Positions 845 through 44,494 of a stretch of 48,095 nucleotides of DNA are shown piece by piece. Made by a program: the position numbers and the translations under genes. Position 1 is the stretch's first letter. Each line of letters starts with the position of its first letter. The DNA lies in the IMG/VR virus record IMGVR_UViG_3300015371_000063, positions 1 through 48,095 of that record. One strand, 5' to 3'. The stretch comes from a virus. Below the pieces are notes generated by a model, which was not told where the DNA came from, did no database searches, and saw nothing but the letters and a program-made list of their open reading frames with translations.

Positions 845-1213
845 TCATGTTGCGACGCCGCGCTCGGCGAGCATTTCGAGCCATTGGCCATGCTCGGGCG
901 CGCCCTCGTTGGGATCGATCACCGAACGGATGTTGTAGAGCGTGCCCGACCGTTCATCCTTGGCGCGCCAACCGGCATCGACCCGGCGCGTGCGCGAGGA
1001 TTGCCGAACCGTGATGTTGACCACGTTGGTGCCGCCGAGCCGATCGGCCAACACTTGCTCGCCGCCGAGTCTCGGCCGAACGTTGGCGGCACAAACGAAT
1101 TCCGGCGTCGCCGGAAAGGCCGGCCCCTGCGGCACGCCGTATTCCGCGCCGCTCGACGGCGGCGTCGGCCGTTTATAAAACCCGAATTTCGATCGCAGGT
1201 CGCCGGCTTGCAT
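845..1213 (-). CDS. Head-tail adaptor protein (phage head-tail joining family)
   Basis: A 122-residue protein starting MQAGDLRSKFGFYKR, the typical opening of SPP1 gp16/HK97 gp9-like adaptors ('aG.Lr.ri.iqr'). It ends with a segment like 'YNIRSVIDPNEG...WLEMLAERG', matching the family's conserved 'y.I.gi.dp......l.l.a.rg' end. It should sit below the connector ring and bind the tail terminator. The ATG overlaps the stop of the repeat-protein gene (TGATG). In most relatives this gene directly follows the gp6-like connector. Here about 9.2 kb separate the two. Confidence 0.85.
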   Translation of the reverse strand: MQAGDLRSKFGFYKRPTPPSSGAEYGVPQGPAFPATPEFVCAANVRPRLGGEQVLADRLGGTNVVNITVRQSSRTRRVDAGWRAKDERSGTLYNIRSVIDPNEGAPEHGQWLEMLAERGVAT

Positions 1214-4200
1214 CACAACAGCACCGGTGAGCCGGCCGCCAGATTTCCGGCGCCGAGCGTGACCATCGAGGCGGGGTTGGCCTTGTTGATGTCAATGCGG
1301 AACGCGCCTTGCATCGCGGCGGTCACCGTGTCAGCGGAACGAATGTGCCAATCGAGTTGGCCCTCGTCGGCGGCGGCCGATTCCCATGACGCCCGCCACG
1401 ATCCGCCGGCGATCGGCGCCATCGCGATTTGCTCCTCGACCGGTTTGCGGAAGCGGCGATAGGCCAGATAGAGCATCGCCGAAACCGGCTGCGTCGGGTC
1501 GCCGTTCACGTCGACAAAGGTCACCGTCCAGACCACGGTCGAGCCGCGCACCACAATGTCGGCGTTTGCCATCACGGGCCTCGTTATTCCGTCCTCGGCG
1601 ATTTCCTCGACCGTCACGCTGCCGTCCGCCGTGCCGATGCTCACCGAACCGCCGGCCGGCCAAACGCTGACGACGCCGCCGACGATGATCTTGATCGTGA
1701 AGTTCGGCACGCCGAGCACCGGCGCGCCCGAGGAAAGCGACGCGGCGGTCAACACGTAAAATTGCCCGAGCGATGGCCTTCCGAGGATCGGCTTGCCGGC
1801 CGCCAAGGCCCGCGCCACAAGCTTGTTCTGTTGGACGAGCGTCGCGCTATCGAGGATCGGCGCGCCGGCTCGGAGTGCTACCGCGATGAGCTTGTGCTTT
1901 TCCTTGAGCGAGGGCGTGCCGAGGATCGGCGCGCCGGCCGACACCGGGATTGCGGTGAGCGCCGCGATCTGCCGCAACGTCGCGGCGCTGAATTTCGGCA
2001 AACCGGTTTTGAGCGAAACCGCCGCCGGGATGATGTGATTTTGCGTCAGCGACACCGCGCCGAACGCCGGCCGGCCGGCGGCGAGTGAGGCGGCAACGAT
2101 CCTATGGCGTTGCGTGATCGTCGGCGTGCCGAGGATCGGCGAACCGGGCTTGAACGACACCGCCGCCATCGTTCCGTTGATGAACAATTGCGGCGACGGC
2201 AGGATCGGCGCGCCGGTCTTGAGGTTGGCCGCACCGATGAAATGATATTGCTTGAGCGTTGCGGCGCTGAATGCCGGATGGCCGGCCGTCAGCGATGATG
2301 CCGCAAAGGCATTGAGTTGCGTGAGCGCCGGCGTGCCGAGCGATGGCGAACCGGGTTTGAACGATACCGCCGCCAACACTTGCCGCTGCACGAGCGTCGC
2401 CGCGCCAAATGTCGGCGAGGCGGTGGTGAGGTTGGCGGCGGCGAGGCCGTGCCTTTGGGTAAGCGTTGCCGCGCCGAACGACGGCGAACCGGTCTTGAAG
2501 CTGACCGCCGCCAATTGCCCGGCCTGGAACAATTGCGGCGTGCCGAGCGATGGCGCGCCGGTGGTGAGCGATGCGGCCGAAAGCGTAATGAGGCCCGACG
2601 AAATCGTAACCGTTGGTGACGAGCCGAACGGGCCGCTGTTGGTTAGCTCGGCCCCGACCAGCGCGCCCGAGAATACGGTCAGCGCCGGCGCAACATCGAC
2701 GACCGGCGACGGTGCGGTGAGGTTCGCCGGAACGATGGCACCGGCCGGCACCAAGGCCGGCACGCCGAGCGTCGGCGCACCAACCGAAAACGAAACCGCG
2801 AACAGGCCGCCGAATGCGACAAGCGCGGGCGGGGCGTCGACGACTGGCGACGGTGCGGTGAACGATGCGGCGGTGAGCGGAACAGGTTGAGCGAGCGACA
2901 CCGCGCCAAATGTCGGCGAGGTCGTGGTGAGATTGGCGGCGGCCAACACATGCCGTTGGGCGAGCGTGACCGCGCCGAGCGTCGGCGAGGCGGCGGCGAG
3001 GCTGGCGGCGGCAAGCGCGTGCCGCTGCGTCAATGTCGGTGCGCCAAGCGTCGGCGAGCCGATGGTGAGGTTGATCGCGGCCAATTGGCCGGCTTGCAGC
3101 AATTGCGGCGTTGCCAGGATCGGCGAACCGGCCGCCAGGTTTGCCGCCGCCAGCACATGCCGTTGGCCGAGCGTGACCGCGCCAAATGTCGGCGCGCTTA
3201 CGGTAAACGAGGCGGCGGCTAGAACATTGCTTTGGCCGAGGATGACCGCGCCGAACGTCGGCGCGGCGGTCGTGAGGTTCGTCGCCGCAAGATTATGCCG
3301 CTGCGATAGCGAGGCCGCCGAAAACGATGGCGAACCGGTGGCGAGGGCGGTCGCCGAAAACGTGTGACTTTGAACGACCGTCGCGGTGCCGAACGTCGGC
3401 GCGGCGGTCGTGAGGTTGGCGGCATCGAGCGCGTAAAACACCGTAACCGCCGGTGCCGCGTCGGTGACCGCCGCCGTCGAGGTCAACGCGGCGGCGGCGA
3501 GCGGTGTCTCGCCACCCGGAAGGCTAACCGCGCCGAACGTCGGCGCGCCGGTCGTGAGGTTGGCCGCCGTCAAGCTGCCGTCGGATGCGGTCAGCGCCGG
3601 CGCGGCGTCGATTGTCGCGGCGGGAGCGCTGAAACCGCTCGCCGCAACAACGTTTTGTTGAACGATCGTCGCGGCGCCGAACGATGGCGAGCCGGTGGTT
3701 TTCCCGGCGGCGGCGAGGCCGATGATCTCCTTAAACGCGACGTAACAACTCGCATAGATCGCCGACACATAGGTCGGGTCCGACGCGGCGGCGGTGCCGG
3801 TGACGATCCGGTGCTCGGCGCGACAGCATATCTCGCCGACCGTGCCGGTGGTCGCGCTGTTGCCGTTGCCCCATGCCGTCCACGAGGCCGTTGGCGTCAG
3901 GTTGGTATTGTTGCCGACTTGGCTCGCGATCGCGCGAACCCGCAAGCATTCGACGTTGGCCGTCGTAACGTCGAGCGAGGCTGGATCGGCACCGGTGTTG
4001 TTGACCAGCGTGCCGGGCGTGCCTTCGATCGCGACCGTCGCTCCGGCCGTAATCGAAAATTTCCGGGTCACCAAAGCGGAAGCGTCGACCAGCGTGCCGC
4101 TGCCGAACGTCGCGCGGATAATTCCGCCGGAAGCGAGCCCGCTGGTGGCGACGCCGTACCATATTGAGCTTGACGCACCGGCCTGCGCGGTGAGCGCGTT

Positions 4201-4419
4201 GGCGATCTGGATTGCCTTGGTAAGCGCTTGGCCGCCGACGCCAAGCGTCACGCCACTGCAAGCGTTATCGTCGCCGCCGTTGGCGATGTTGTCGGCCGCA
4301 ACGCAGACGACGACAAATTCGCCGGCCGTAATAACGCCCGAGGTCGTGAGATCAAGCGTCGTCTGATTGTTGTTGGTTGAGCCGGTCTGGCCCGGTGAAC
4401 CGAGATCGCCAAATGCCAT
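1213..4419 (-). CDS. Large tandem-repeat virion protein (about 29 x 23-residue repeats)
   Basis: A 1068-residue protein with three parts. Residues 1-233 are a Gly/Thr/Ala-rich beta-type head domain. Residues about 234-908 hold some 29 repeats of 23 residues, consensus close to LAAANLTTGAPTFGAVTLxQ. The C-terminal part (about 910-1050) has beta strands resembling small phage baseplate/fibre Ig-like domains. The protein closes with a half repeat, LGAGNLAAGSPVLL. The regular hydrophobic spacing suggests a beta-solenoid or fibre shaft. It lies in the virion operon between a 164-residue paralog-family protein and the head-tail adaptor, so it is probably a virion fibre. Whether it sits on the head or tail cannot be read from the sequence. 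Confidence 0.8.
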   Translation of the reverse strand: MAFGDLGSPGQTGSTNNNQTTLDLTTSGVITAGEFVVVCVAADNIANGGDDNACSGVTLGVGGQALTKAIQIANALTAQAGASSSIWYGVATSGLASGGIIRATFGSGTLVDASALVTRKFSITAGATVAIEGTPGTLVNNTGADPASLDVTTANVECLRVRAIASQVGNNTNLTPTASWTAWGNGNSATTGTVGEICCRAEHRIVTGTAAASDPTYVSAIYASCYVAFKEIIGLAAAGKTTGSPSFGAATIVQQNVVAASGFSAPAATIDAAPALTASDGSLTAANLTTGAPTFGAVSLPGGETPLAAAALTSTAAVTDAAPAVTVFYALDAANLTTAAPTFGTATVVQSHTFSATALATGSPSFSAASLSQRHNLAATNLTTAAPTFGAVILGQSNVLAAASFTVSAPTFGAVTLGQRHVLAAANLAAGSPILATPQLLQAGQLAAINLTIGSPTLGAPTLTQRHALAAASLAAASPTLGAVTLAQRHVLAAANLTTTSPTFGAVSLAQPVPLTAASFTAPSPVVDAPPALVAFGGLFAVSFSVGAPTLGVPALVPAGAIVPANLTAPSPVVDVAPALTVFSGALVGAELTNSGPFGSSPTVTISSGLITLSAASLTTGAPSLGTPQLFQAGQLAAVSFKTGSPSFGAATLTQRHGLAAANLTTASPTFGAATLVQRQVLAAVSFKPGSPSLGTPALTQLNAFAASSLTAGHPAFSAATLKQYHFIGAANLKTGAPILPSPQLFINGTMAAVSFKPGSPILGTPTITQRHRIVAASLAAGRPAFGAVSLTQNHIIPAAVSLKTGLPKFSAATLRQIAALTAIPVSAGAPILGTPSLKEKHKLIAVALRAGAPILDSATLVQQNKLVARALAAGKPILGRPSLGQFYVLTAASLSSGAPVLGVPNFTIKIIVGGVVSVWPAGGSVSIGTADGSVTVEEIAEDGITRPVMANADIVVRGSTVVWTVTFVDVNGDPTQPVSAMLYLAYRRFRKPVEEQIAMAPIAGGSWRASWESAAADEGQLDWHIRSADTVTAAMQGAFRIDINKANPASMVTLGAGNLAAGSPVLL
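1696..3720 (-). repeat. Tandem 69-bp coding repeats (about 29 units)
   Basis: The repeat array inside the 1068-residue protein. Units average 23 codons and keep the positions L-A-A-x-x-(L/F)-x-x-x-x-P, then G, then a hydrophobic and Gln/His-rich turn (often QRH). Units alternate between a T-x-G-x-P-x-x-G type and a diverged 'P-V-V-D-x-x-P' type. Units are diverged enough in DNA that recent slippage is not obvious. Boundaries are approximate. Confidence 0.85.
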
Positions 4420-14855: not shown

Positions 14856-14883
14856 TGCCCGGCCTCCCTTGAATGACGAAAAC

Positions 14884-14911
14884 CCGCCGGCCCAAATTGC
14901 GGGCCGGCGGG
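14884..14911. other. GC-rich hairpin between capsid and 70-aa gene
   Basis: CCGCCGGCCC at 14884-14893 pairs with GGGCCGGCGG at 14902-14911 around an 8-base loop. It lies just after the capsid stop in transcription direction. It lacks a U-run, so it may attenuate or stabilise the abundant capsid mRNA and is probably not a full terminator. Confidence 0.5.
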
Positions 14912-14929
14912 CGTTTGCTGCCGCGCGGA

Positions 14930-17002
14930 TTATCGAGGTTGCGGCTGCCGAGTGGCGGCTTCAAGCTGCGCCCGCTGCGCCTCTTGCTGCACCCGTCGCG
15001 TGGTTTCTTCTTCGTCCTTCAGCCGTTGCGTTATTGCCGCCTCGTCGAGCGTCGGCGCGATGGTGACACCGGAAAGATATTGCACCGAGCCGGTGCGCGC
15101 CTTGACCCACGTGATGAAACGCTCGGCCCTGATGCCGACCATGTTCGCCTGCCACAGCGAAACCATGATGGTTGTCGCGGTGGCCGGCGAGTCCGGTGCG
15201 CTGTCCATCTGCAACGACGCCTCGGTCGAAACCGAGAAGTCGACGCCGCCGTCATCGGCCAGCAAGATTTCCGGCGCGTTGATCGCGATGACGAGCCCGG
15301 TGGGCACGCTTTGCGAGGCGACCACCGGAATGCCTTCCAGCGTGCCGCCCTCCTTGCTCATGCCGGGGAAATCCTGCATGCCGAATGCGTTGCGGCTCAT
15401 GCCGATGCCAAGCGCAAGCGACGAACGCATGACCAGCACCAAGCCGTCGGTCGATTGGTTCGCCGTCGCATAGGTGGCGAGCAACGTGTAGAGGTCGGTG
15501 CGCAACGCTTCCGGCGTCGTGCCGGTCGATGGAATCGCCGACACCCCGTTGGTCACCGATGCCGGCGACACGCCGGTCACCGCCGCGATCGCCGGGTCGA
15601 GGAACGTGGTGTCGACCAGCTTGGTGATGGCCGCAACCAGCGAGTTGCGGATCAGCGTTTCCGCCGACGGCGATGAGAATTTCATCAATTCGACCGTGAT
15701 CGGAACGATGCCCGCGAGCTTGTGGAAGGCGAGCGACACGCTGTCGAACGCCATCGGACTGACCGGCTTGGGCTTGCCCTCGCCGACCCACGCCGCCACC
15801 GCGCCGAGTGTTTCGCGCGGCACCTTGATATTGAACGGCACCCGAGTGAGTCCAGGGATGCGGTTGACCACCGATGCCGCATAAAGCAATTCGATGAATT
15901 CGTTGGTGAGGTTTTGCGCCACCACCAACGGCCCGGCCCACGTCGCGTCGGTCGTGGTGCCGGCCGCCACCGCAGCGCGTTCGATAACGTCCATCGGAAT
16001 CTTGAGCACCGACTCGATGTCGTCGCCCCATCCCTTCGAGCGCGCGATTTCGGCCGGATGAACGTGGTGCTCCTTGGCGAGATAGCGAGCGCCAAACAGC
16101 CGGATATAGCCGACGCCCTTCGGCAGCGCTGGCCGCACGGCGATGACCGGCGAGCCCCGCGATTCCGATGCGGCGCGTTGCGTTGTGCCTTGCACGCCGC
16201 GCGCCTGTTCCATGTTGCGCTTTTCCGAGGCGCGCAACCGCACCAGATGCTCGTCGATTTCCTTCACCTCGATGTCGAGGCCGTCGTAGGTTTCCTTCTG
16301 GGCGCTGTCGAGCGTGATGCCCTTGTCGGAAACCTCGTTCATCAGCGCGTCCATTTCCGCCACCTTGGCGGCGCGCGTGTTCTCAAATGCCGAAATCTGT
16401 TCGGCGAAAGTTTGCTTTGCCATAGCTCGGCGGCCCTCCAGGGCCTTGATCACTGTCGTGGTTGATCGTTTTGCCGAGTCGCCGGCGGGGTTTTGCTCGA
16501 CGCTGCGTTGCGTTTTGCCGGTCGCGGCCAGCAATGCAGCGTCGATCGATTTCAATTGCGTGATGACGGCCTCCGGCTGCGCCGGGATCGACACCAAGGA
16601 AAGCTCGAGCCATTCCCATTTTTTGAAACGGAAACCGTTTTCGATGACCTCGATGCCGTCCTCGATGGCGCGAAAGCCGATCGAGACGAACTGCCGAAGC
16701 CCATGCTTGACGAAATGCCAAGCCTTGTCGGTCAACCGCTTGGCGTCGCCGTCCTCGTCGATGCGCGTGATCTTGGCGCGGAACGGAATCCCGCTCTTGT
16801 TCGGCTTGGCAAATTCGACGTGGCCGACTTGGTCGCGGCTCGAATGATCGAGTAGGAGCGGCATCGGCAATTTGAATTGCGCGCCCAACGGCTCGACCAC
16901 GTCGCCAACGCGATCCGGCGTCGGCGTCGAGGCGATGCCTTCGAACGTGCGCGTGTGCTCGGTGATTTCCTTGATTTCCAAAATGGCAAAGGCGCGGTTC
17001 AT
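14930..17002 (-). CDS. Prohead protease - major capsid protein fusion (HK97 type)
   Basis: A 690-residue polyprotein. Residues 1-170 form an HK97-family U35-like prohead protease: RTFEGIASTPTPDRVGDVV, LLLDHSSRDQVG with the catalytic-type His, and LELSLVSIPAQPEA with the conserved Ser. Residues about 195-290 are coiled coil, equivalent to the delta/scaffold region. Residues about 300-670 are an HK97-fold capsid (VVAQNLTNEFIELL, FNIKVPRETLGAVAAWVGEG, VPITVELMKFSS, FPGMSKEGGTLEGIPVV). Protease, scaffold and capsid are usually separate or pairwise fused. The ATG at 17002 was chosen because it begins the protease domain (MNRAFAILEIKEI). The gene comes before the portal, the reverse of the usual order. 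Confidence 0.9.
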   Translation of the reverse strand: MNRAFAILEIKEITEHTRTFEGIASTPTPDRVGDVVEPLGAQFKLPMPLLLDHSSRDQVGHVEFAKPNKSGIPFRAKITRIDEDGDAKRLTDKAWHFVKHGLRQFVSIGFRAIEDGIEVIENGFRFKKWEWLELSLVSIPAQPEAVITQLKSIDAALLAATGKTQRSVEQNPAGDSAKRSTTTVIKALEGRRAMAKQTFAEQISAFENTRAAKVAEMDALMNEVSDKGITLDSAQKETYDGLDIEVKEIDEHLVRLRASEKRNMEQARGVQGTTQRAASESRGSPVIAVRPALPKGVGYIRLFGARYLAKEHHVHPAEIARSKGWGDDIESVLKIPMDVIERAAVAAGTTTDATWAGPLVVAQNLTNEFIELLYAASVVNRIPGLTRVPFNIKVPRETLGAVAAWVGEGKPKPVSPMAFDSVSLAFHKLAGIVPITVELMKFSSPSAETLIRNSLVAAITKLVDTTFLDPAIAAVTGVSPASVTNGVSAIPSTGTTPEALRTDLYTLLATYATANQSTDGLVLVMRSSLALGIGMSRNAFGMQDFPGMSKEGGTLEGIPVVASQSVPTGLVIAINAPEILLADDGGVDFSVSTEASLQMDSAPDSPATATTIMVSLWQANMVGIRAERFITWVKARTGSVQYLSGVTIAPTLDEAAITQRLKDEEETTRRVQQEAQRAQLEAATRQPQPR

Positions 17003-17043
17003 GGCGACCGCCTTTCGAATTGATGTTGTTGAGGCGAGAGAGG

Positions 17044-18747
17044 CTAGATCACGAAAATGTTGTGCTGGCGCCGCGCCGTCACCGGATTCCACGACATGAG
17101 GATCGCGGCGCAGAACGTGGCGATCAGCGGATCGATCTTTGCTCTACCGGCGGCTTGCTTGGTGATGATGTTGCCGTTGCCGCGCACCTCGACCTTGGCG
17201 TTGCCGACGACCCACCGCATCAGCGCGAGCCCGCCGTGGCTCAACGTGTCGTCGCTTAGCTTGCGCTCGATGCCCCAGATCGCCGGCGATAGCGCGGTGC
17301 CCTGCATCAGCCGCCGCAACATCGGGTCGGTGATCCGCCGCGCCACCAATTCCTCGATGATGGTGCCGACGTTGTTCGGATCAAAGCCGATGGCGTTCTT
17401 TTCGGGCAGCAAGCCGGCGTCGCGGATTTGCGCCACCACCTCGCCGAGCGCCTTGATGTCGTCGGGCACTTGGCAGAACGTCAACGATCCTTCCGCCTCA
17501 AACTCGAGCAAGGTTTGCGAAAGCTCTTTGTAACGATCGAGAATTTTGGGGTGCGCGTAAGCGTGATTCCAGATCAGCCAACGCCGGGTTTGTTTTTCGC
17601 GGCCGATCACGGCAAGCCCGAGCATGTCGTCGAGGCCGCCGCCGTCAATGCCGATGGTCGCAACCTCTGAGCGCTCGATGAGGTTTTCCAGCGTCAGCGC
17701 GTAGTCCGATCGGTCGGCCCAATAATCGGCGGCGCGCCATGCGTCGTCGGGCAACGCCGAGCCAACCTCGACGTTGAAATGCTGGCTGGCGATCAATTGC
17801 AGTTGCGTCGTGTCGTCGGTGCGCTCGGCCTTGGCCAATTCGTCGCGGAGGTAAGCCTCGTCGACCGAGCGGTGTAGGTTTGGATTGACGAGCGGCCAGG
17901 TTTTCGGATCGCGCCAACCGCCATCCTTGGCAACATCGAACGGCAATTCGTACAGCACCGGCAGGATCGGCAGGCTGATGACGCCGTCGCGCACCGCACG
18001 CGCGGTGTTTAGCTCGGCCTTGAACAACCCGACGGGCGGGTCTTTGCTTTGCGTGGTGATCTGGATCATGAACCCGTCGGGCCGCGACGCGAGCCCGCCA
18101 CGGATTTCGATGAACACCGCCTTGGCGTCGGCCTTCTGCGCGAACTCGTGCGTCTCGTCGACCAGAATGTAGCTTGCTTTTGAGCCGGTGATCACGTCGG
18201 CGTCGGCGGCCTTGATCTGCATCACCGCTTCGGTCATGCGGTGCTTGATCGTGCTGGTATGCGCCGACAGGTTGAAAAGCTTGTTGAGTTCGGCGTCGAG
18301 CCGGATGATGCCGGCGGCCTGGTTGAACGCGATCGAGGCGATCTTTTTGGTCGGCGCGATCAACAGCAATTCGGCGGCCGGCCTTCGATTGACGATCGCG
18401 GCGGTGACCATGATCGCGGCGGCAAGGCTCGACTTGCCGTTTTTCTTTGGGATCAGCACGAAAAATTCGCGGATCATGCGGCGCCGCGTTGCCGGATCGT
18501 AGGCGCCGAAAATCGCCGCCACCAATTCGAACACCCACGGCGCGCAAACCTCGCCGTTGGTCGGCGTGCCGATCACGTCGGGAATGCGCAACCGCTTGAA
18601 CACCCGCAACGCGCGCTCGACCTCGCGCTCGTTGAGCGGCAATTTCGGGATCAGCGAGCGTTGCTGCATGATCCGCGCTTGCCAATCGGGGCAGGCGGTC
18701 GACCACGGCGTTGTTAATTGGTCGGTGGTTTGAGGTCGTCGCCCCAT
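17044..18747 (-). CDS. terL: Terminase large subunit (TerL)
   Basis: A 567-residue packaging motor and nuclease. The ATPase has Walker A PKKNGKSS at about 100-107 and Walker B ILVDE at 194-198, followed by the coupling motif region (GFMIQITTQS). The nuclease half carries GIDGGGLDD near residue 370 and FDPNNVGTIIEELV further on, giving the acidic residues that bind metal. It resembles the Terminase_1 group common with HK97-type heads. Its start overlaps the end of the terS gene by 34 bp. The 41-bp gap to the capsid gene carries a good ribosome site only for the latter. Confidence 0.95.
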   Translation of the reverse strand: MGRRPQTTDQLTTPWSTACPDWQARIMQQRSLIPKLPLNEREVERALRVFKRLRIPDVIGTPTNGEVCAPWVFELVAAIFGAYDPATRRRMIREFFVLIPKKNGKSSLAAAIMVTAAIVNRRPAAELLLIAPTKKIASIAFNQAAGIIRLDAELNKLFNLSAHTSTIKHRMTEAVMQIKAADADVITGSKASYILVDETHEFAQKADAKAVFIEIRGGLASRPDGFMIQITTQSKDPPVGLFKAELNTARAVRDGVISLPILPVLYELPFDVAKDGGWRDPKTWPLVNPNLHRSVDEAYLRDELAKAERTDDTTQLQLIASQHFNVEVGSALPDDAWRAADYWADRSDYALTLENLIERSEVATIGIDGGGLDDMLGLAVIGREKQTRRWLIWNHAYAHPKILDRYKELSQTLLEFEAEGSLTFCQVPDDIKALGEVVAQIRDAGLLPEKNAIGFDPNNVGTIIEELVARRITDPMLRRLMQGTALSPAIWGIERKLSDDTLSHGGLALMRWVVGNAKVEVRGNGNIITKQAAGRAKIDPLIATFCAAILMSWNPVTARRQHNIFVI

Positions 18748-19118
18748 TCGGAACCCTCGCCGGCGGTGCGCGCAACGATCGCCGCGATCTGTTTCTTGCC
18801 GACCGGTTTCAACCGTGGCGTATCCACAAGATCACCGTTCGCCCATATCCGTTGAAGCTCGCGCAACGCGGCAATGTTGCCGTCCTCAACCAGCATCCAC
18901 AACCGTGTGACCATGCGGGCATTGAGCCGATCGCGCGCCGCGTCGACCGAGCGCAATTCGCCGCGATATTTGGTGCGCAATTCCTTCAACGTGCAGCCGA
19001 GCACGTTGGCAATTCTTTTTTCGTTCCAGCCGAGCGAAAGCAGCAAATCAAGCTCGACGCCGGTTTTGTCGGCCGGCGGCAATGGAAATTTTTTGTTACG
19101 GTTTAATTTTTCTCTCAT
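18714..19118 (-). CDS. terS: Terminase small subunit (TerS)
   Basis: A 134-residue protein with an N-terminal helix-turn-helix (ELDLLLSLGWNEKRIANVLG, then TLKELRTKYRGELR), a middle helical part with RLNARMVTRLWMLVEDGNIA, and a charged tail, as expected of a small terminase that recognises the packaging site and oligomerises. It sits directly before terL and after an HNH gene, the standard packaging arrangement. The motif GTTACGGTTT (19095-19104, opposite strand) lies inside codons 5-8, which is odd for a coding region and may mark a regulatory site. Confidence 0.8.
   Translation of the reverse strand: MREKLNRNKKFPLPPADKTGVELDLLLSLGWNEKRIANVLGCTLKELRTKYRGELRSVDAARDRLNARMVTRLWMLVEDGNIAALRELQRIWANGDLVDTPRLKPVGKKQIAAIVARTAGEGSEWGDDLKPPTN
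19095..19104. promoter_or_regulatory. GTTACGGTTT motif at start of terS
   Basis: The 10-mer is shared with 26304-26313 and 34939-34948, with a 9-base version (opposite orientation) at 26427-26435. It overlaps the first codons of terS and is flanked by A/T-rich sequence in an otherwise GC-rich genome. A candidate binding site for a phage regulator, here possibly controlling late genes. Confidence 0.45.
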
Positions 19119-19179: not shown

Positions 19180-19461
19180 TCAATACCAAACGCCGCGCTC
19201 GTTGATCGATCGTTGCTCGAGCTTTTGCTTTTTCGAATCGTGACATGATCGGCAAAGCGTTTGCAGATTACCGATATTCCAAAACAACGCTTCGTCGCCG
19301 CGATGCTCGATCGTGTGATCGGCGACAAGCTCCGAGGTGTCGGCCTTGAGCAACCCACACTCACGGCACGTGAAGCGATCACGAATGAGCACCGTCTTGC
19401 GCAAGCGCACCCATCGCTTGAGCGTGTACCAACGCCGATAGCTGTGCCCACGATCAGCCAT
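19180..19461 (-). CDS. HNH endonuclease
   Basis: A 93-residue HNH nuclease: CRECG, then ADHTIEHRGDEALFWNIGNL, and CRSCHDSKK, giving the paired zinc-binding cysteines and the His-Asn-His core. Small HNH proteins beside terminase genes assist cos-site cleavage and packaging in HK97-like phages. It is the first gene after the hairpin terminator at 19473-19498. Its own ATG lies 12 bp past that hairpin, so it can be expressed only by read-through or from a promoter overlapping the terminator. Confidence 0.9.
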   Translation of the reverse strand: MADRGHSYRRWYTLKRWVRLRKTVLIRDRFTCRECGLLKADTSELVADHTIEHRGDEALFWNIGNLQTLCRSCHDSKKQKLEQRSINERGVWY

Positions 19462-19472
19462 TTGTAAAACAG

Positions 19473-19498
19473 CAAAAGCCCAACCTTTCGGTTGAGCC
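19473..19498 (-). terminator. Hairpin terminator between NusG-like gene and late block
   Basis: Read on the minus strand, GCTCAACC (19497-19490) pairs with GGTTGGGC (19485-19478) around a GAAA tetraloop, followed by TTTT. One G-T wobble is present. It would stop transcripts arriving from the replication genes. All late genes lie beyond it, which fits control by antitermination. Confidence 0.7.
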
Positions 19499-19607
19499 CA
19501 ATGGATGCGACTAGCGAATGTCTCGCTTTGTGTAGCGGGGATGATCCGCCGCCGAGCAACTTGGTCAGGGGTAACGACGGTTTAGGACTACCGCCGAAAG
19601 CCTTCAC
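19499..19607. other. Gap between NusG-like gene and terminator
   Basis: About 110 bases with no credible gene. It lies 3' of the NusG-like gene and before the terminator, the place where an antitermination loading site would be expected. I see no consensus boxA or clear promoter. Confidence 0.4.
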
Positions 19608-20168
19608 CTATATTGCCTCGATCTGAGTCGGATGAACGTGGATAGGCACGACCCGACCCAACAGGCCGACGCTTACCACGATGCGGCCGTCATCGTCTAG
19701 CCGCTCGATGGAACCAGCGGGCCAACGTCCGAACAGGTCGCCGCAGAACGAAACTTTGTCGGCAACCCGGAAGCGGTGCGCCGTTTTTGGGTTTTCCGGC
19801 AAATTCTCGTCGCCCTCGATGCGTCGGATGATTTCGATGTCCTCATCGGTGAGGTGCGCGGGTTCGCGGTTGCCGTTGCGGACAAATCCGTAAACGCCGG
19901 GCGTCTCGTGCACCACGTCCCAAGGATTGCCGCCGGCCATGAACAGGTAGCCCGGTATGATGCTGGCCAATTGCGAGCGGCGACCGCCGCGACCGCTTGC
20001 CCGAGCGATCAGATAGTTCGGCCAGTAAATCCAGACGCTCGCCGATCGCGCCTTGACCCATTCGGCCGCCGATCGTTCCCGGTTGGCGAACGTCAGCAAC
20101 GCGAACCATTTGTGCGACCGCAGGATCATCGCCAATGGCCTCGCATTCTGCGGCAGGCTTTCACCCAT
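19608..20168 (-). CDS. NusG-like transcription elongation/antitermination protein
   Basis: A 186-residue protein. The N-terminal part (about 19-115) matches the NusG domain layout: KWFALLTFANRERSAAEWVK, then YWPNYLIARA, IIPGYLFMA and TPGVYGFVRNG, the counterparts of NusG's 'Wyvv.v.p..E..v.e.L', 'P......r.......fpGYvfv' and 'tpgv..fvg'. The C-terminal part (about 130-180) is KOW-like (RVADKVSFCGDLFGRWPAG, then GRVVPIHV). NusG paralogs such as RfaH act as operon-specific antiterminators. With a terminator 110 bp downstream and the late genes beyond, I infer late-gene control. An ATG at 20129 is an alternative start. Confidence 0.8.
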   Translation of the reverse strand: MGESLPQNARPLAMILRSHKWFALLTFANRERSAAEWVKARSASVWIYWPNYLIARASGRGGRRSQLASIIPGYLFMAGGNPWDVVHETPGVYGFVRNGNREPAHLTDEDIEIIRRIEGDENLPENPKTAHRFRVADKVSFCGDLFGRWPAGSIERLDDDGRIVVSVGLLGRVVPIHVHPTQIEAI

Positions 20169-20528
20169 GCGTTATTTTGCCGTGCGCGGCCAACGACGGC
20201 GTTCCATGTGAAACGCCGCCGCCGCATCGAGTTTGCTTGGCCGTCGGGGTGCGGGGTTGCCGCGTGTTTGCCGGCGCGGCGTGCTCGACGGCGAAAACAT
20301 AACCGAGCTTCCAGCGTCGCGCAATTTTCGGCCGATCAGGGTCGGCACCGGCGAAGCGTTGTCGCTCGTGTGCCGCGCCGTCCTATAGACGGCGTGCGGC
20401 TCTTCACATGAGCGCACGCTTGGGGGGTATGGGGGACAGTGGTCGCCCCCCTGTGCGGACCAGTGTGCGGAAAAAACGTCGATGTGCGGACCATGTGCGG
20501 CCCCATGTGAAACTGGACGGAACCCGGA
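20169..20528. other. Intergenic region with direct repeats; possible replication site
   Basis: About 360 bases without a convincing gene. A weak minus-strand frame (20172-20417, GTG start, no ribosome site) reads as unstructured Pro/Arg-rich sequence, and I do not accept it. The right part contains a cluster of TGTGCGG direct repeats and a G/C-run stem-like section (20421-20450). It lies just downstream of the RepA-like helicase gene. Confidence 0.5.
20452..20500. repeat. Cluster of four TGTGCGG direct repeats (iteron-like)
   Basis: TGTGCGG occurs at 20452, 20464, 20483 and 20494, three of them followed by A and the first and third by AC. Start-to-start spacings are 12, 19 and 11 bases, so pairs fall about one helical turn apart. 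Short phased repeats beside a replication helicase gene are typical of origins, but they could equally be operators. A single further TGTGCGGCCCC lies at 26466. Confidence 0.45.
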
Positions 20529-22007
20529 TCAAAAAAGCTTCGGTTCCGGGTCGGCGTCGGGGTGTAGCCGGGCGACATAAATGCAGGCGTTCCGCTTTGA
20601 CGGTTTTTGCGCGATCGGGCCTTGCCCGGTTTTGACCTCGCCCGACTTGAGCATGGCGTGCATGGCGTCGCGGAACATTCGCATTCGGACGCGGTAGCTC
20701 GAATGCAGCGGTGTTGCTTCGGGAAGCTTGGCGAACACGCTCGGGGCAAAGTTCCGCGCGGTGGTGGCCGGCGAAACCGGAATGTCGTTGTTGTTGTGGA
20801 ATTCGAGCAATTGCTTGAAAACGCCGTTGGTCGCGCGGTCGGCGGTGGCGCGATCGTAGCTTGTGGCCGGCATGATCTGGCCGGGCGCGAGCGCCAAGAG
20901 GCCGTCTTTCCACGACAATTGCAATTTGTCGCCGTGCGCCGAGTAATTCGCTTTCATGGTTTCCAGCACGCGCACGTCGGCCTCGGCCTCGCCTTCCTCG
21001 GGCCGGTAGAGGTAGAGCCGCGAGCGCACCGAATTATTCCAAGCCGTCGAGCCGCTTTGGCCGTCGCCCTCGCGCATTCCGGCGCGGCTCGGATGGGAAA
21101 GCAAGAGCGCCGCGCAATCGACGCGGACGGCGAGCCCGCGCAACAGGTTGACGCATTGCCGGGCCTGACTTCGATCGCGTTCCTCGACCACGAACATATC
21201 GGCGGCGGTATCGAAACCGATCCACACCGGCTTGATCCGCTCGGCCTCGCGCGCCACCGCCTCGAACAGCGCGGTCGGCTTGATCAATCCGCTTGGCGTG
21301 GTGATCGCCAGCGCCGACTCCTCGCCGACCAGCGTCACGATATGCAGATCGGCAAGCTCGTCGAAGCCTGCGCCGTAATGCGAGGCGATCCGGTCGAGCC
21401 GGAAATGGATTTCGGCGGCGTCGTCCTCGGCCGAGACGAGCATCACCGGGCCGGGCGTCGGCATCATGCCGAGCCAATCGCGGCCGAGCACGGTGGCGAC
21501 CGCCAATTGCTGCGCGAGCAAGGTTTTGCCGACGCCACCGTCGCCCGACAACAACGTGACATTGGCCATCGGCACGAGGTTTTGCACGACCCATCGCCGG
21601 GCCGGTGCCGGCCGAACGAGGTGCACGATGTCGAGGTAGCGCAATTGCCGCGCTGGCGGCGCGTCGGTCGGCGGCGCGTCGGTCGGCGGCGCGTCGGGCG
21701 GGGCGAGCGGGAAATCGTCGACCGACCCGTTGGTGCGCGGCGCATCCAAGGCGTCGATGATGGTGCGCTCGACCACCTCGAGCCCACCGAGCGAATTGAC
21801 GAGGTCGTGCCGCTCGGCCCGCTCGATGAGTTCGTCAATGATCAGCGTTCGATCGGCCCCGTTCCTGACGAAATCCGCGCCCTCGGTGATGCAATTGCGG
21901 AACACTTGCGGGCGCATATCCGGCGCGGCGAGCGCAATCATGCGTGACCATAAGCTGACGCCGTCGGCGAACCGGCCAAGCTCGGCCATGCCTTCAAGAT
22001 CGGCCAT
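20529..22007 (-). CDS. RepA-like AAA ATPase / replicative helicase
   Basis: A 492-residue protein. Residues about 120-400 are an AAA_25/RepA-type RecA fold: Walker A GDGGVGKT at 155-162, then PGPVMLVSAEDDAAEIHFRL, and later ERIKPVWIGFDTAADMFVVE, CAALLLSHPSRAGMREGDGQ and GSTAWNNSVRSRLYL. These match hexameric helicases of the RSF1010 RepA family used by many phages. The N-terminal 100 residues resemble the DnaB N-terminal helical domain. Before the ATPase is a short PPTDAPPTDAPP repeat. The C-terminal part may bind a partner. It is probably the phage's replication helicase/initiator. Confidence 0.85.
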   Translation of the reverse strand: MADLEGMAELGRFADGVSLWSRMIALAAPDMRPQVFRNCITEGADFVRNGADRTLIIDELIERAERHDLVNSLGGLEVVERTIIDALDAPRTNGSVDDFPLAPPDAPPTDAPPTDAPPARQLRYLDIVHLVRPAPARRWVVQNLVPMANVTLLSGDGGVGKTLLAQQLAVATVLGRDWLGMMPTPGPVMLVSAEDDAAEIHFRLDRIASHYGAGFDELADLHIVTLVGEESALAITTPSGLIKPTALFEAVAREAERIKPVWIGFDTAADMFVVEERDRSQARQCVNLLRGLAVRVDCAALLLSHPSRAGMREGDGQSGSTAWNNSVRSRLYLYRPEEGEAEADVRVLETMKANYSAHGDKLQLSWKDGLLALAPGQIMPATSYDRATADRATNGVFKQLLEFHNNNDIPVSPATTARNFAPSVFAKLPEATPLHSSYRVRMRMFRDAMHAMLKSGEVKTGQGPIAQKPSKRNACIYVARLHPDADPEPKLF

Positions 22008-22980
22008 TTAATTCCCTAAGCTTTGTCGAAGCACGCGATGAACTCGGCCGCGACTTGAGGCACGATCGCGTTGCCGTAGGCGCGCAGCTTAGATGCTCTG
22101 CGCTGTATCCCATGAGCCAGCGGGAATGTGCCGGGCTCAACTGGCCGGGCTTTTCCATCGACGCAGGCGAGCCATTCCGCACCAGTCCACCCATCAGCAA
22201 TTCGCCCTTGCGTTTGCCGCTCCTGCTCGTCTGCCCGCCCTCCATCGCATTGGGCGTCGGCCACGCCGCGGCTGCTGCGATTGCTGGCAAGTCCGACCCC
22301 GGACCCTTCCGGTTCAATTCCTTCATCGCGCCCCGGTGTGAGCGCGCGCCCTTCTCGCCATCCGTTCCCTTGGCCGTGGGCCAAGCCGCCCACTGGATCT
22401 CGCCGCGCGGCGTCTGCCAACTCGCCAGATAAACTTGATTGGTCAGCGCGTTCGGATCGCAATCTTGTTGCGCCCGGCTGAAACTCGCGTGTCGCGAGTC
22501 TTGAGCCGTTGGCGTTCCCCACGAACCAGCATCGTTGTCGGACATGGGGCGCGCCGACGCTGCAAGCTGGCAGTACGGCCGCCCCGCAGGCGTACCCTTC
22601 GTCCTCCAGATCAGCGAAAACAGCGTCGAGCCAACCCCATCCAATCGCCGCTTCAACTTGCTCTCCAAAGACGATTGCAGGGCGGCGCTCGGCGATGAGA
22701 GAAAACCACGCAGGCCACAAGTGGCGTTCGTCATCGGCCGCCTTGCCCGCACCGGCGGCGCTAAAGGGCTGGCAGGGACAAGAGCCTGTCCAAACAGGTC
22801 GGTCGTCGGGCCATCCGGCGAGACGGAGGGCAACGGACCATCCGCCGATGCCAGCGAAGAAATGGGCTTGGACGTAGCCTCGGAGGTCGTCGGGCCGCAC
22901 GTCAACGATGTTTCGTTCGTCAACGTCGCCAGCGGCGATGTGTCCGGCGGCGATGAGGTTGCGGAGCCATTGCGCGGCAT
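21994..22980 (-). CDS. Long ORF overlapping the Dcm-type methyltransferase gene
   Basis: A 328-residue frame lying almost wholly inside the methyltransferase gene (22016-23011) on the same strand, shifted by one base. It shows protein-like repeats: four W-x-T-P/W-P-T segments (GSWGTPTAQDS, ASWQTPRGE, AAWPTAKGT, AAWPTPNAMEG), SAALQSSLESKLKRRLDGVG, and HSRWLMGYS near the end. I recall similar sequences recurring in phage and bacterial databases beside cytosine methyltransferases, but cannot check that here. If expressed, this is a 965-bp dual-coding region. If not, it is a by-product of the strong motif structure of the other frame. Confidence 0.45.
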   Translation of the reverse strand: MPRNGSATSSPPDTSPLATLTNETSLTCGPTTSEATSKPISSLASADGPLPSVSPDGPTTDLFGQALVPASPLAPPVRARRPMTNATCGLRGFLSSPSAALQSSLESKLKRRLDGVGSTLFSLIWRTKGTPAGRPYCQLAASARPMSDNDAGSWGTPTAQDSRHASFSRAQQDCDPNALTNQVYLASWQTPRGEIQWAAWPTAKGTDGEKGARSHRGAMKELNRKGPGSDLPAIAAAAAWPTPNAMEGGQTSRSGKRKGELLMGGLVRNGSPASMEKPGQLSPAHSRWLMGYSAEHLSCAPTATRSCLKSRPSSSRASTKLRELNGRS

Positions 22981-23011
22981 AGGGGTCGACCTCGTTGTAA
23001 TAAGCGGTCAT
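22016..23011 (-). CDS. DNA (cytosine-5) methyltransferase, Dcm type
   Basis: A 331-residue C5 cytosine methyltransferase with motif I-like HFFAGIGGWSVALRLAG, the catalytic Pro-Cys in GSCPCQPFS, motif VI-like EQVEAAIGW, motif VIII-like APHVRQRCWFVG, and a C-terminal LRAYGNAIVPQVAAEFI (motifs IX-X). Between VIII and IX is a target-recognition region with repeated ADA/NAN segments. It is an orphan: no cognate cytosine-specific endonuclease is next to it. Likely role is protection from host restriction. See the overlapping reading frame. Confidence 0.9.
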   Translation of the reverse strand: MTAYYNEVDPYAAQWLRNLIAAGHIAAGDVDERNIVDVRPDDLRGYVQAHFFAGIGGWSVALRLAGWPDDRPVWTGSCPCQPFSAAGAGKAADDERHLWPAWFSLIAERRPAIVFGEQVEAAIGWGWLDAVFADLEDEGYACGAAVLPACSVGAPHVRQRCWFVGNANGSRLATREFQPGATRLRSERADQSSLSGELADAARRDPVGGLAHGQGNGWREGRALTPGRDEGIEPEGSGVGLASNRSSRGVADAQCDGGRADEQERQTQGRIADGWTGAEWLACVDGKARPVEPGTFPLAHGIQRRASKLRAYGNAIVPQVAAEFIACFDKA

Positions 23012-35496: not shown

Positions 35497-35901
35497 ATGA
35501 ATATCGATCCGTCGAAGCCGAACCAACAGTTGACGATCAGACCGGGGCTTGGTGGCGGCACGTCGCTGTCGATGCAGCGTCGGATGTTTGATGCCCGTTT
35601 CGCCACTCGCTACTTCGTCGGCAATGGCTTGGATATCGGTGGCGGTGCTGACTCGCTCGGGCTTTTTGTCGAATTGTTTCCTTTAATCAAGAACGTCGTG
35701 AACTACGACAAGGGGCAGGGCAACGCGCAATTTCTCGACAACGTCGCTGACGGGTCGTTTGATTTCGTGTTTTCGAGTCACTGTCTTGAACACATGCGCG
35801 ACCCCGCCGAGGCGCTGTCCAACTGGATCAGGGTAGTGAAGCCGGGCGGTCATCTGGTGATCGCGGTGCCAGATGAAGGCATAAAAAAGCCCCGCCGGTG
35901 A
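35497..35901 (+). CDS. Truncated class I SAM methyltransferase
   Basis: A 134-residue protein. GNGLDIGGGADSLGLFVELF is motif I, FDFVFSSHCLEHMRDPAEAL is the motif IV-post region and VVKPGGHLVIAVPDEG the motif VI region of methyltransferase-11-type enzymes. The family normally continues for about 80-100 residues. Here the frame ends within the stem-loop of a terminator (TGA in its loop). Likely a remnant whose 3' end was replaced by the terminator. It may be inactive, or work as a minimal domain. It starts 3 bp after the XRE stop. Confidence 0.75.
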   Translation: MNIDPSKPNQQLTIRPGLGGGTSLSMQRRMFDARFATRYFVGNGLDIGGGADSLGLFVELFPLIKNVVNYDKGQGNAQFLDNVADGSFDFVFSSHCLEHMRDPAEALSNWIRVVKPGGHLVIAVPDEGIKKPRR

Positions 35902-35910
35902 AGGCGGGGC
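35883..35910 (-). terminator. Terminator of the late minus-strand block
   Basis: On the minus strand GCCCCGCC (35910-35903) and GGCGGGGC (35896-35889) form an 8-bp stem with a 6-base loop, followed by TTTTTT (35888-35883). It lies after the last late gene (36239) in the transcription direction and overlaps the 3' end of the methyltransferase remnant on the other strand. Confidence 0.85.
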
Positions 35911-35972
35911 CAAGGAAGCATCAACGGTCTGAGCTTAGATCACGGCGGCCAGATCAGCAATGAGGTGGCGTG

Positions 35973-36601: not shown

Positions 36602-36694
36602 TTAAGCCGGAATGTAGTATGCGACTACGAACATCAGCGCGAGCAAGAGAAGCCCGAGCGCGAGCAGCAAAAACCGCACCTCGCCGTTGGTCAC
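36602..36694 (-). CDS. Single-TM small protein in lysis cassette
   Basis: A 30-residue frame starting GTG, overlapping the endolysin stop (GTGA). It has one membrane helix (VRFLLLALGLLLLALMFVVA) and a short end YYIPA. It may be a holin regulator or antiholin. Overlap and hydrophobicity support it. Confidence 0.55.
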   Translation of the reverse strand: MTNGEVRFLLLALGLLLLALMFVVAYYIPA

Positions 36695-38292
36695 ATTAAG
36701 TCGCCGGTCAACAGCGCGTCGACGATGGTTTCGATTTGCTGGAATAACAAATCAGCGTTCGGCCGCAATTCCGCTTCCCGACGATTGATCGGCCCCCAAT
36801 GCTGACGCAAATTGCGCAAGCCGATCGCGGCGCATTCCACCGCGAAGGTTGGGATATGTTTTTGCATTTCCTGAAAAACGTAGCCGTTGCCGCTCCCGTA
36901 GTTTTTCCATTCGCTAGATGTGCACGATACGCCCTCCGACCACACGTCGAGGTAGCCTTGCGGGGCCTCTATGATCGGATCGGCATAGCTTTTTTCCAGA
37001 TTGTACTGATCAAACAGGTTGATGAAATCGGTGCAGCAATTGTGCGCATTCCATGACGTTTGAAATAGCCCGGCCTCGCAAGTATTGGAATCCGTGTTGT
37101 TGGCCGACTGATCGCGGCCGCAGCAATGCTCGCCCGACGACTCGCGCATCCCGAGTCCCGTGATCAGCACATAAAGATGGCGCAGCGTGTCGGCCCCGTT
37201 TTTGTCGTTGCTCATGCCGAGCGAGCGGAACGCTTGGCTGTACCAAGCCAGCGCATCGACGCCATCATCGTGAGTGTCGGCCTTCGCCATTTCCCAGGCG
37301 ATCGGATCGCCGAGCTTGAGTCGTGCATAGGCTTGGCCGTAGGCCAACGCCATGCCCTTGATATATCCCGGCGGCGCGCGCCCTCGGTCGTTCCAACTAT
37401 ATTGGGCAACCGGGCTGGCCTCGGCACAATCGCAAATTTCACTGATGGTCGCCGGCAGAAACGGCGGCGGGATCGGCGGCGGATAGGGTGTGAGGTCGTA
37501 TTCCATGTCCAGCGCCGCCCAAGTCTGCGGGCCGACCTCGCCATCGATCGTCAGGCCGCTGTCGCGCTGAAAATCCTCGACGGCCTTCTTTGTCATGTTT
37601 CCGAAATCGCCGTCGACGGTGACGTTCAACACCTCTTGGACCTCGCGGACGTTGTGACCGTAGGCCCCTGTCGCGAGGGAAGGCCGGCGATCGGCGTCAG
37701 ATACGAATTCAGGATCGGGCGGCGGTTTGGGCTTTTCGACAACCTCGGGCGGGCGGATTGCGCCGAGCGCTTGGCCGGAAATGGTGCTCGCGATTGTCTG
37801 GCACAATTGCTCGAAATTTGCCCGATACAAATCCGCATCCGTCTGCGAATCGACGAAACAGGTTTCGATCAGGATTGCCGGCTCCGACGTGTGATTGAGA
37901 AAATAAAGGTCGGTCCTTTTTTTGGGGCCTCGGTTGATGACCCCGCCGGCCTTGGCCATCGCCGCGGCAACGTCGCCGGCAAGCTCGTTCTGCGTCAGAT
38001 AAAGGCATTCGACGCCCATCGGTTTTTGCGTGGTTTGATAGGCATTGAAATGCACCGACACGTCGAGCGCCCGCACTTGATGGTTGTGATAATTAACGAT
38101 CCGCTCAAGGTTTTCGTTTTGGCTGTGGCTGGTGTCGTCGTGATAAGCCTTAACTTCAACCTCAGCGCCGTCGAGAATTTGCGCCACCCTATCGACCACC
38201 TTGCGAGCCTCGTTGACCTCGTCCAAAACACCGGCCGCGCCTCTGACATATTTGCCATGGCCGGACGAAATCACGATGCTGTTATAACCCAT
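36691..38292 (-). CDS. Three-domain endolysin: amidase, PG-binding, lysozyme-like
   Basis: A 533-residue protein. Residues 1-175 are an N-acetylmuramoyl-L-alanine amidase (Amidase_3): SSGHGK with His12, Glu28, SVHFNA with His81 for zinc and catalytic Glu143 in IETCFVDS. Residues about 205-262 are a PG_binding_1 domain (GAYGHNVREVQEVLN, DGDFGNMTKKAVEDFQRDSG, VGPQTWAAL). Residues about 300-533 are Cys-rich and include GMRESSGEHCCGRDQ with Glu384, as in a lysozyme or transglycosylase-like second enzyme. It has no signal peptide, so it needs a holin. Confidence 0.88.
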   Translation of the reverse strand: MGYNSIVISSGHGKYVRGAAGVLDEVNEARKVVDRVAQILDGAEVEVKAYHDDTSHSQNENLERIVNYHNHQVRALDVSVHFNAYQTTQKPMGVECLYLTQNELAGDVAAAMAKAGGVINRGPKKRTDLYFLNHTSEPAILIETCFVDSQTDADLYRANFEQLCQTIASTISGQALGAIRPPEVVEKPKPPPDPEFVSDADRRPSLATGAYGHNVREVQEVLNVTVDGDFGNMTKKAVEDFQRDSGLTIDGEVGPQTWAALDMEYDLTPYPPPIPPPFLPATISEICDCAEASPVAQYSWNDRGRAPPGYIKGMALAYGQAYARLKLGDPIAWEMAKADTHDDGVDALAWYSQAFRSLGMSNDKNGADTLRHLYVLITGLGMRESSGEHCCGRDQSANNTDSNTCEAGLFQTSWNAHNCCTDFINLFDQYNLEKSYADPIIEAPQGYLDVWSEGVSCTSSEWKNYGSGNGYVFQEMQKHIPTFAVECAAIGLRNLRQHWGPINRREAELRPNADLLFQQIETIVDALLTGDLM

Positions 38293-38313
38293 CGGGCCAA
38301 GCTCCTAGTTTGG

Positions 38314-38613
38314 TCAGCATGGCGGCGGATTCCATTTTTGGGCATCGTCTTTGGCGCGCAGATAGGCGGCGATGCCGAGCCGCATTCCGTTTTGCGCCCG
38401 CGCCGGTTGGCCCTTGTGATCCTTCATCCAATTGCCGAACAGGTTTTGAACGTGGCCCTTGAACGCGGCATCGACCGCCTCGATCGACATGGCGCGGATA
38501 TTCTCGCGCGCCACCTCGTCCATGCAGATGCTCGGGAACACCTCGGTCGGCTGCGCCTGTGGCTCGGTGCAGCCGGCGAGCAACGGCGCGGCAAGCAAGG
38601 CCGCGAATTTCAT
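38314..38613 (-). CDS. Lipoprotein
   Basis: A 99-residue protein with a signal and lipobox (FAALLAAPLLAGC, Cys at 15), then a helical, soluble domain: ICMDEVARENIRAMSIEAVD and QNLFGNWMKDHKGQPARAQN. It lies just before the endolysin gene, where outer-membrane spanin subunits are sometimes found, but it lacks the Pro-rich short form of Rz1. Start at 38613 overlaps the upstream stop (TAATG). I regard it as a virion- or lysis-associated lipoprotein of unknown role. Confidence 0.7.
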   Translation of the reverse strand: MKFAALLAAPLLAGCTEPQAQPTEVFPSICMDEVARENIRAMSIEAVDAAFKGHVQNLFGNWMKDHKGQPARAQNGMRLGIAAYLRAKDDAQKWNPPPC

Positions 38614-39965
38614 TAGTCCAGCCCGCCGGCCGAGCCGCGCGTCACGGCGGCGAGGTTCGGCCCGCCCATCTTGGCGCCGCCGGATTGCAAATTGTAATTG
38701 TTGGTTGCGACCGTCGAGAACCCGGCCCCGGTGTCGCAGTAAACGCCGATCAACACGCCGTTGAACGTGTTGGCACTGATCAGGTTGCCGGTGCCGCCAA
38801 ATGTGACTCCAATGTGCCCGGTGCCGGCGACGCAATCGATGCTATTGCCGACAATCGTGCTCGAGGTTGCCGGCCCGAGGTGAATCGCCTCTTGATTGCT
38901 CAACGCGCCGAGCGGGCCACCGTCGCCCAATATGAACAGGTTGCCGGTAAGCAAAATTTCCACGCCCTTCAAGTTGAAAATCGCCGGTGAAATCTTGCAA
39001 TCGAAGCAACAGCCGGAGACGTTCAATTGGTTTTGGCCGCTGCCGGTGTTCGGGCAATAGATGCCGCAACCGGTCTGGAAATTGGTTTGGAAAACGGTGA
39101 CGCCTTGCCCGGCGCTGTACCATTCAATGCCGTTGCCGAGCGAATTGAAATGACAGCCGGTCAGATCGTTATAGATCGACGCCAGAAAGCTCCCGACGTT
39201 GTCGCCCGAGACTCGCAAGCCGGTGCCGTTGTTGAAATCGCCCGGCTTGCCCGACCAATTGCAGCCCCACCATGAGTTAGCGCAAACGTTGTTGACGATT
39301 TGCCCAAATTGAAAATACGGGCCTTCGGCACCCTCGTTTTTGCCGACAAATGTCAAGCGCTGGTAGGTGTTGCGCTGAAAGTCGGCGGCGGTGGCGGTGG
39401 TGGTGACGTTGAGCCCGCAATAGGTGTTCACCACCATCGCCATGAACGTGATGCCCTCGCAATGAAACGAGTGCCGGTTGTTTGCCATGTTGACGTTCAA
39501 TGCCGCGAGCGTGGTCGAGGCGCTGCGGAATTGCGTGGCGCCGGGGCCGTCGCCAACCACGCGGATCGCGTACTCGGTGCTGGCGGCGGCGCCGGTCGGA
39601 TAGTTCAATGCCGCGCCCTCGCACTTGTAGATGCCTTTTGGAAAATACAGCACGCCGCCGCGCGTGCCGGCGAGCGCCGCCATCATGCTCGGGATCACCG
39701 ACGTGGCGATATTGACGCTGCCGTCGGCGACGGCGCCGTGATCCATCGCGTTGATCCAGCCGCCAAGCGCGCCAGACGGGCCGGGCACGCCTTGCGGCCC
39801 CTGCGTTTCGATCCACGGACCCCATGAGCCGTCGGGCAATTGAAAACGAATCTGCGTCCCGAGCACGTCATGCAGCGGCACCGGACCCATTGGCCCGGCA
39901 GGACCCCGCGGCGGCAGCGGCGGGAACGGAAACGACCGTTGTGGCGAAAGCGGCGTGATGGTCAT
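38613..39965 (-). CDS. Beta-helix tailspike/fibre protein
   Basis: A 450-residue protein. The N-terminal 75 residues are Pro/Gly-rich with short collagen-like parts (GPAGPMGP, GPQGVPGPSG) and a GSWGPWIETQ segment, followed by INAMDHGAVADGSVNIATSV and VLYFPKGIYKCEG, the usual start of a right-handed beta helix with Gly/Asn-rich rungs to the end. It overlaps the S74 fibre gene upstream (ATGA). A third spike type in this genome, placed with the tail tip genes, so probably the main receptor-binding spike. Confidence 0.8.
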   Translation of the reverse strand: MTITPLSPQRSFPFPPLPPRGPAGPMGPVPLHDVLGTQIRFQLPDGSWGPWIETQGPQGVPGPSGALGGWINAMDHGAVADGSVNIATSVIPSMMAALAGTRGGVLYFPKGIYKCEGAALNYPTGAAASTEYAIRVVGDGPGATQFRSASTTLAALNVNMANNRHSFHCEGITFMAMVVNTYCGLNVTTTATAADFQRNTYQRLTFVGKNEGAEGPYFQFGQIVNNVCANSWWGCNWSGKPGDFNNGTGLRVSGDNVGSFLASIYNDLTGCHFNSLGNGIEWYSAGQGVTVFQTNFQTGCGIYCPNTGSGQNQLNVSGCCFDCKISPAIFNLKGVEILLTGNLFILGDGGPLGALSNQEAIHLGPATSSTIVGNSIDCVAGTGHIGVTFGGTGNLISANTFNGVLIGVYCDTGAGFSTVATNNYNLQSGGAKMGGPNLAAVTRGSAGGLD

Positions 39966-44478: not shown

Positions 44479-44494
44479 TAGCGCCGCGAGGTTG

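Follow-up and report, generated by a model that had tools for sequence, protein, structure and literature searches.

In bacteriophage lambda, Q is the last early gene and lies beside the late block, with a terminator at the junction and a long late operon downstream. To our knowledge none of the known phage antiterminators (N, Q, and RNA signals of which put is an example) is related to NusG; some of them work together with host NusG. LoaP, a NusG paralog of Bacillus velezensis that serves the difficidin and macrolactin leaders, reads through leader terminators on the dfn leader and also passes terminators inside the operon (PMC12691694). RfaH is a paralog with NGN and KOW domains that acts in trans. 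Its recruitment takes place at ops (PMC5995543). GafZ antiterminates past terminators in the Caulobacter gene transfer agent, an alphaproteobacterial phage-like late cluster; it reportedly cooperates with host NusG and, together with GafY and IHF, is loaded close to the promoter (PMC11150451). Cis-encoded NusG paralogs also occur in surface-polysaccharide-type operons and on conjugative plasmids, with the paralog gene at the head of its operon. No open-access paper that we found describes a NusG paralog as a late regulator of a phage, or the conserved junction reported here.

We analyzed a 48,095-nt stretch of viral DNA (IMG/VR record IMGVR_UViG_3300015371_000063; hereafter the window) in which a NusG-family gene lies between the early and late genes (Table 1). 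It shares with lambda Q its position, the junction terminator and the long late operon downstream; in contrast, Q has no relationship to NusG and is loaded at the late promoter, whereas the loading site in the window, if any, would lie behind the gene. Like the LoaP systems, the window combines a NusG paralog with a candidate recruitment element and then an intrinsic terminator before a very long operon, and its late block has an internal terminator at which we propose similar readthrough; LoaP differs in binding an RNA hairpin and in serving polyketide operons rather than a phage. The window protein resembles RfaH in its NGN and KOW domains and in having a candidate ops core (GGCGGTAG in the window) in the leader, but by our own alignment the RfaH DNA-contact residues K10 and R73 are replaced by F and P. 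With GafZ it has in common the alphaproteobacterial phage-like late cluster; no NusG paralog is described for GafZ (PMC11150451). The cis-encoded paralogs of surface-polysaccharide-type operons and conjugative plasmids are not phage genes, but in the Hyphomicrobiales they too have an ops-like site behind the gene.

Table 1. Positions of the junction, early and late features in the window.
Feature	Positions	Strand	Evidence or remark
RepA/primase-helicase-like ATPase, upstream gene of early operon	20529-22007	-	Pfam AAA_25 4.8e-33; PHROG 906 2.6e-29
NusG-family protein (NGN + KOW), last gene of early minus-strand operon	19608-20168	-	186 aa; Pfam, PHROG, PDB, AlphaFold2
Candidate ops core GGCGGTAG (RfaH-type)	19588-19595	-	12-13 nt past NusG-like stop codon
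Intrinsic terminator between NusG-like gene and HNH	19476-19499	-	10-bp stem, GAAA loop, then TTTTGCTGTTTT; dG -13.8
HNH endonuclease, first gene past terminator	19180-19461	-	Pfam HNH 2.3e-8; PHROG 589 2.9e-25
Putative small terminase subunit	18714-19118	-	Position between HNH and TerL; PHROG 12540 1.1e-21 (family function not known)
Terminase large subunit	17044-18747	-	PHROG 9 8.4e-100
Prohead protease fused to major capsid protein, one 720-aa gene	14930-17092	-	Phage_capsid 1.5e-16; Peptidase_S78 7.5e-5; PHROG 617 6e-133
Strong intrinsic terminator inside late block	14882-14912	-	18 nt past capsid stop; dG -29.3
Portal protein, 880 aa	11994-14636	-	PHROG 2271 8e-111
Remaining late block (tape measure, tail fibres, amidase), joining base 1 via circular ends	36691-48095	-	PHROG matches
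Terminator at far end of late block	35888-35911	-	dG -20.0; TTTTTAT tail

The ends of the window have 123 identical bases in common, so the window is circular or circularly permuted. Because these ends link base 1 of the minus-strand block with its tail and amidase genes, which lie at 48-36.7 kb, the late block extends over about 31 kb, wholly on the minus strand and unbroken across the circular ends. Upstream, minus-strand genes of the early side extend from about 26 kb as far as the RepA/helicase-like ATPase and then the NusG-like gene. An earlier reading of these letters by a model that ran no database searches (the sequence-only reading) had placed the HNH gene and all virion genes of a 31-kb late block beyond a terminator, and the PHROG and Pfam matches together with the identical ends bear this out. 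A hairpin of other sequence with a T-rich tail was present at the post-capsid site in three loci with 49-67% capsid identity (L247, L249 and L250), and none was found there in L248 and L252. Scans with the Rep and capsid proteins revealed no closer locus retaining a NusG-like gene.

The product of the junction gene is a NusG-family protein, specifically a specialised paralog that belongs to no named subfamily. It matched Pfam NusG (PF02357) at 1.6e-12, with 48.2 bits against a cut-off of 22.2, and thus has an NGN domain by the Pfam threshold. PHROG 6386, annotated 'transcription antiterminator', matched residues 18-184 (1.5e-10), and Thermotoga maritima NusG in the PDB could be aligned with residues 19-186 (7.8e-12). 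The alignment to residue 186 and modelled strands at 138-178 revealed a C-terminal KOW-like barrel. The AlphaFold2 model, built from 24 sequences (pLDDT 83, pTM 0.73), comprised an NGN domain and a beta-barrel KOW, in contrast with the autoinhibited all-alpha KOW of RfaH, a comparison in which AlphaFold2 cannot settle fold switching. The sequence-only reading had described NusG-domain and KOW-like features in this gene and had named a model unlike NusG as evidence against itself; the domain matches and the model agree with the description, and a structural search of the PDB with the model returned NusG and RfaH as the top matches. It had also called for a profile comparison with NusG and RfaH, and this placed the protein in the NusG superfamily but below the cut-offs of both curated models, at 46.6 bits for the housekeeping NusG equivalog (TIGR00922, cut-off 135.7) and 26 bits for the RfaH equivalog (TIGR01955, cut-off 144.5). 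Scores for the LoaP model NF033641 (22 bits, cut-off 125) and the UpxY model NF033644 (30.8 bits, cut-off 100) were also below threshold, and it is these four results that set the protein apart from the named subfamilies. A profile combining chromosomal Hyphomicrobiales paralogs with the window protein gave RfaH as its best PDB match (5e-28). No match to the window protein was obtained at 1e-3 by tblastn against phage records, or in a scan of viral contigs.

The NusG-like gene and the HNH gene are separated by a gap of 146 nt (19462-19607), which contains the intrinsic terminator listed in Table 1. The terminator that the sequence-only reading had placed after the gene is thus real in form. 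The start of its interval (19473-20168) falls inside the terminator, and the relevant regulatory stretch is the gap itself. In a generic 10-kb scan terminator-type patterns were not in excess (16 versus 12.8 +/- 3.6 expected), so the junction terminator gains its weight from lying between genes and from having counterparts in relatives. A strong promoter after the terminator that alone drives the late genes, which the sequence-only reading had held would speak against a late switch, did not appear: a minus-strand scan from 20600 to 18701 gave no sigma-70-like promoter (0 sites versus 1.9 in shuffles), and a separate scan also gave 0. Other late promoters or activators may exist.

The candidate ops core was present as a single exact copy in the 48-kb window, counting both strands, compared with 0.78 copies expected in the whole window and about 0.001 in the gap. 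We also examined 25 chromosomal loci (L101-L125) from Hyphomicrobiales genomes, obtained with a paralog similar to the window protein as query. Within 250 nt of the paralog stop codon, GCGGTAGC was found on the sense strand in 19 of these, 51-245 nt past the stop, with no antisense copy and 0.55 expected. This motif has the appearance of an RfaH ops element serving cis-encoded operons. All 19 chromosomal copies have a C after GCGGTAG that is missing from the window core, as is the TG of ops positions 11-12, which is found in validated E. coli targets (PMC5995543) and retained by many of the chromosomal copies. The downstream reading frames of two paralogs inspected in more detail (L086 and L087), judged by eye, are apparent surface-sugar genes. 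The ops core was not common to the other phage gaps among the loci compared, and a match in L085 fell within an sRNA-like element. The recruitment of cis-encoded paralogs was called unknown in a study of RfaH evolution (PMC7593976); the ops-like sites behind the chromosomal Hyphomicrobiales paralogs bear on this question.

Analysis of phage records and genomes revealed about 30 alphaproteobacterial phage or prophage loci with a divergent NusG-like gene between replication and packaging genes. With few exceptions the order was replication gene, NusG-like gene, gap, HNH (often), TerS, TerL and portal, and the NusG-like gene held its position where the terminase was of another type (L012, L083 and L084). 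The 23 distinct gaps, many of which come from related Bradyrhizobium-type prophages and are hence not independent, contained 38 intrinsic terminators in the sense orientation and 9 in the antisense orientation, compared with 5.2 in shuffles (dG -13.5 or better). This threshold replaced a looser one of dG -10, at which 39 terminators were counted and the 16.7 found in shuffles were too many. Sense terminators occurred in the gaps at 5.7 per kb, compared with 0.70 and 0.35 per kb in the two flanking coding regions; 20 of the 23 gaps had at least one and 14 had tandem copies. The gaps of L004, L008 and L080 had no terminator by our criterion.

Three of the relatives are named phages, Mesorhizobium phage vB_MseS-P1, Sinorhizobium phage phi3LM21 and Rhizobium phage PPF1, whose PHROG 6386 proteins belong to the same family and occupy the same genome place as the window protein, at 17-21% identity to it. 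In a tree these three proteins grouped with host NusG, and the window protein did not clearly do so (unplaced, 68/21). The proteins of L004, L008, L012, L013 and L099 were placed next to host NusG (100/98), apart from the Bradyrhizobium-type proteins, a split which indicates that at least two lineages occupy the junction position. Genome searches with PHROG 6386 or the phi3LM21 protein returned mostly housekeeping NusG and were unusable for counting phage copies, and one presumed phage locus (L088) was dropped when its protein turned out to be host NusG. The antiterminator label of PHROG 6386 predates this work, and three phage records already name their copy NusG or antitermination protein.

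Two kinds of RNA element were identified in the gaps of relatives. A conserved GCGGTAGCG hairpin with weak covariation in the Bradyrhizobium-type gaps was considered as an ops- or LoaP-like loading site and rejected, since Rfam assigns it to the mmgR/suhB sRNA family and it is therefore not evidence for an ops site. In a Bradyrhizobium phage (L010, 6656-6736, 62.8 bits) and a Hyphomicrobiales prophage (L017, 5735-5815, 46.5 bits), a match to this family (RF00519) separates the NusG-like gene from HNH, and a 14-mer core of the element was present at the corresponding position in 14 further loci, some of them nearly identical. Judged from these matches, the junction of early and late genes in Bradyrhizobium-type prophages harbours an mmgR-like sRNA. 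The last terminator before HNH in these loci belongs to the sRNA, and another terminator lies upstream of it. The gaps of L012, L099, L013 and L008 have in common a structured element, recognized by eye, with an outer stem CCYTGA/TCARGG and an inner hairpin, followed by GTGCNNNAGCTATGA. It had no Rfam match and is a candidate RNA loading site for the paralogs of those loci.

We consider it reasonably probable that the window protein is a cis-encoded NusG-type processive antiterminator that sits in the position of lambda Q, acts in the manner of LoaP or RfaH and switches on the late block. The NusG paralog would be the final product of the early minus-strand operon, and early transcription would halt at the junction terminator until the paralog had been made. 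The paralog would then bind the elongating polymerase within the leader that follows its gene, with the pause/ops element as the probable site, and would remain on the polymerase in place of host NusG. Polymerase carrying the paralog would ignore the junction terminator and later ones, such as the post-capsid terminator, and the late block of about 31 kb would thereby be expressed. An intrinsic terminator does lie between the predicted loading region and the target operon, as a processive antiterminator requires. The suggestion of the sequence-only reading that a NusG paralog serves as the late switch gains support, as an inference, from the conserved position, the gap terminators, the post-capsid terminator and the ops core. 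Recruitment may instead depend on an RNA hairpin or structured leader rather than on an ops DNA core, in the way that the dfn hairpin serves LoaP, which binds its hairpin upstream of the terminator (PMC12691694). The structured element common to L012, L099, L013 and L008 fits this variant, but the window gap could not be aligned with that element and its predicted RNA fold was barely better than shuffles (z -1.6), and we regard RNA recruitment in the window as unlikely.

A terminator closing an early operon is ordinary, and operon-end terminators are common. The junction terminator could thus simply end the early operon, with the late genes served by their own promoter and a phage or host activator and the paralog acting elsewhere, for example against polarity caused by Rho and host NusG on long phage transcripts, with no dedicated terminator gate. 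In favour of this account, one terminator lies upstream of the sRNA-like element in the Bradyrhizobium-type loci, RfaH chiefly counters Rho and pausing, and the Rho-contact loop IFG of NusG aligned with LLG in the window protein (loop residues from PMC7593976). However, the tandem terminators of many gaps exceed the need of an operon end, the scans for sigma-70-like promoters across the junction were empty, and the NusG-like gene remains next to the late block in loci whose terminase is of another type. We judge this account somewhat improbable, though less so than RNA recruitment in the window. Phages also often encode takeover proteins that bind RNA polymerase, and by established NusG biology an NGN domain would compete for the site of host NusG; the window protein could then be a competitor or decoy by which host transcription is shut down or redirected, and the late block would not be a specific target. 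Such a role needs no fixed place in the genome, yet in about 30 loci and at least two lineages the gene keeps to the replication/packaging junction, and we hold host takeover to be very improbable.

If the window protein does act as a processive antiterminator, a phage NusG paralog would be a further way of building a late switch, and the rule that NusG paralogs serve long, often cis-linked operons would extend to virion genes. A broader generalization, which we put forward only tentatively, is that on two or more independent occasions temperate phages of Alphaproteobacteria have installed a cis-encoded NusG paralog where lambda has Q, as a late-gene antiterminator that would pass a terminator array; the paralog in the window would be loaded at an ops-like site similar to those found behind the chromosomal paralogs of surface-polysaccharide-type operons.

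Several minor features were also recorded. Within the late block, a ParB-like stretch occurs in the C-terminal region encoded by the portal gene, and a 1068-aa protein (1213-4419) had no Pfam or PHROG match. In the early region, two overlapping minus-strand frames (22016-23011 and 21994-22980) both matched DNA methyltransferase PHROGs, at 2.5e-81 and 2.7e-20, and the latter may be a shadow frame or reflect a spurious family. The Rep-like ATPase had few relatives in phage records, mainly Wolbachia phage WO, and an ARAGORN tRNA-Val call on the same strand within its gene (21247-21334) is probably spurious. Between this gene and the NusG-like gene, at 20452-20501, lie four TGTGCGG(A/C) repeats that are iteron-like and possibly mark a replication origin.
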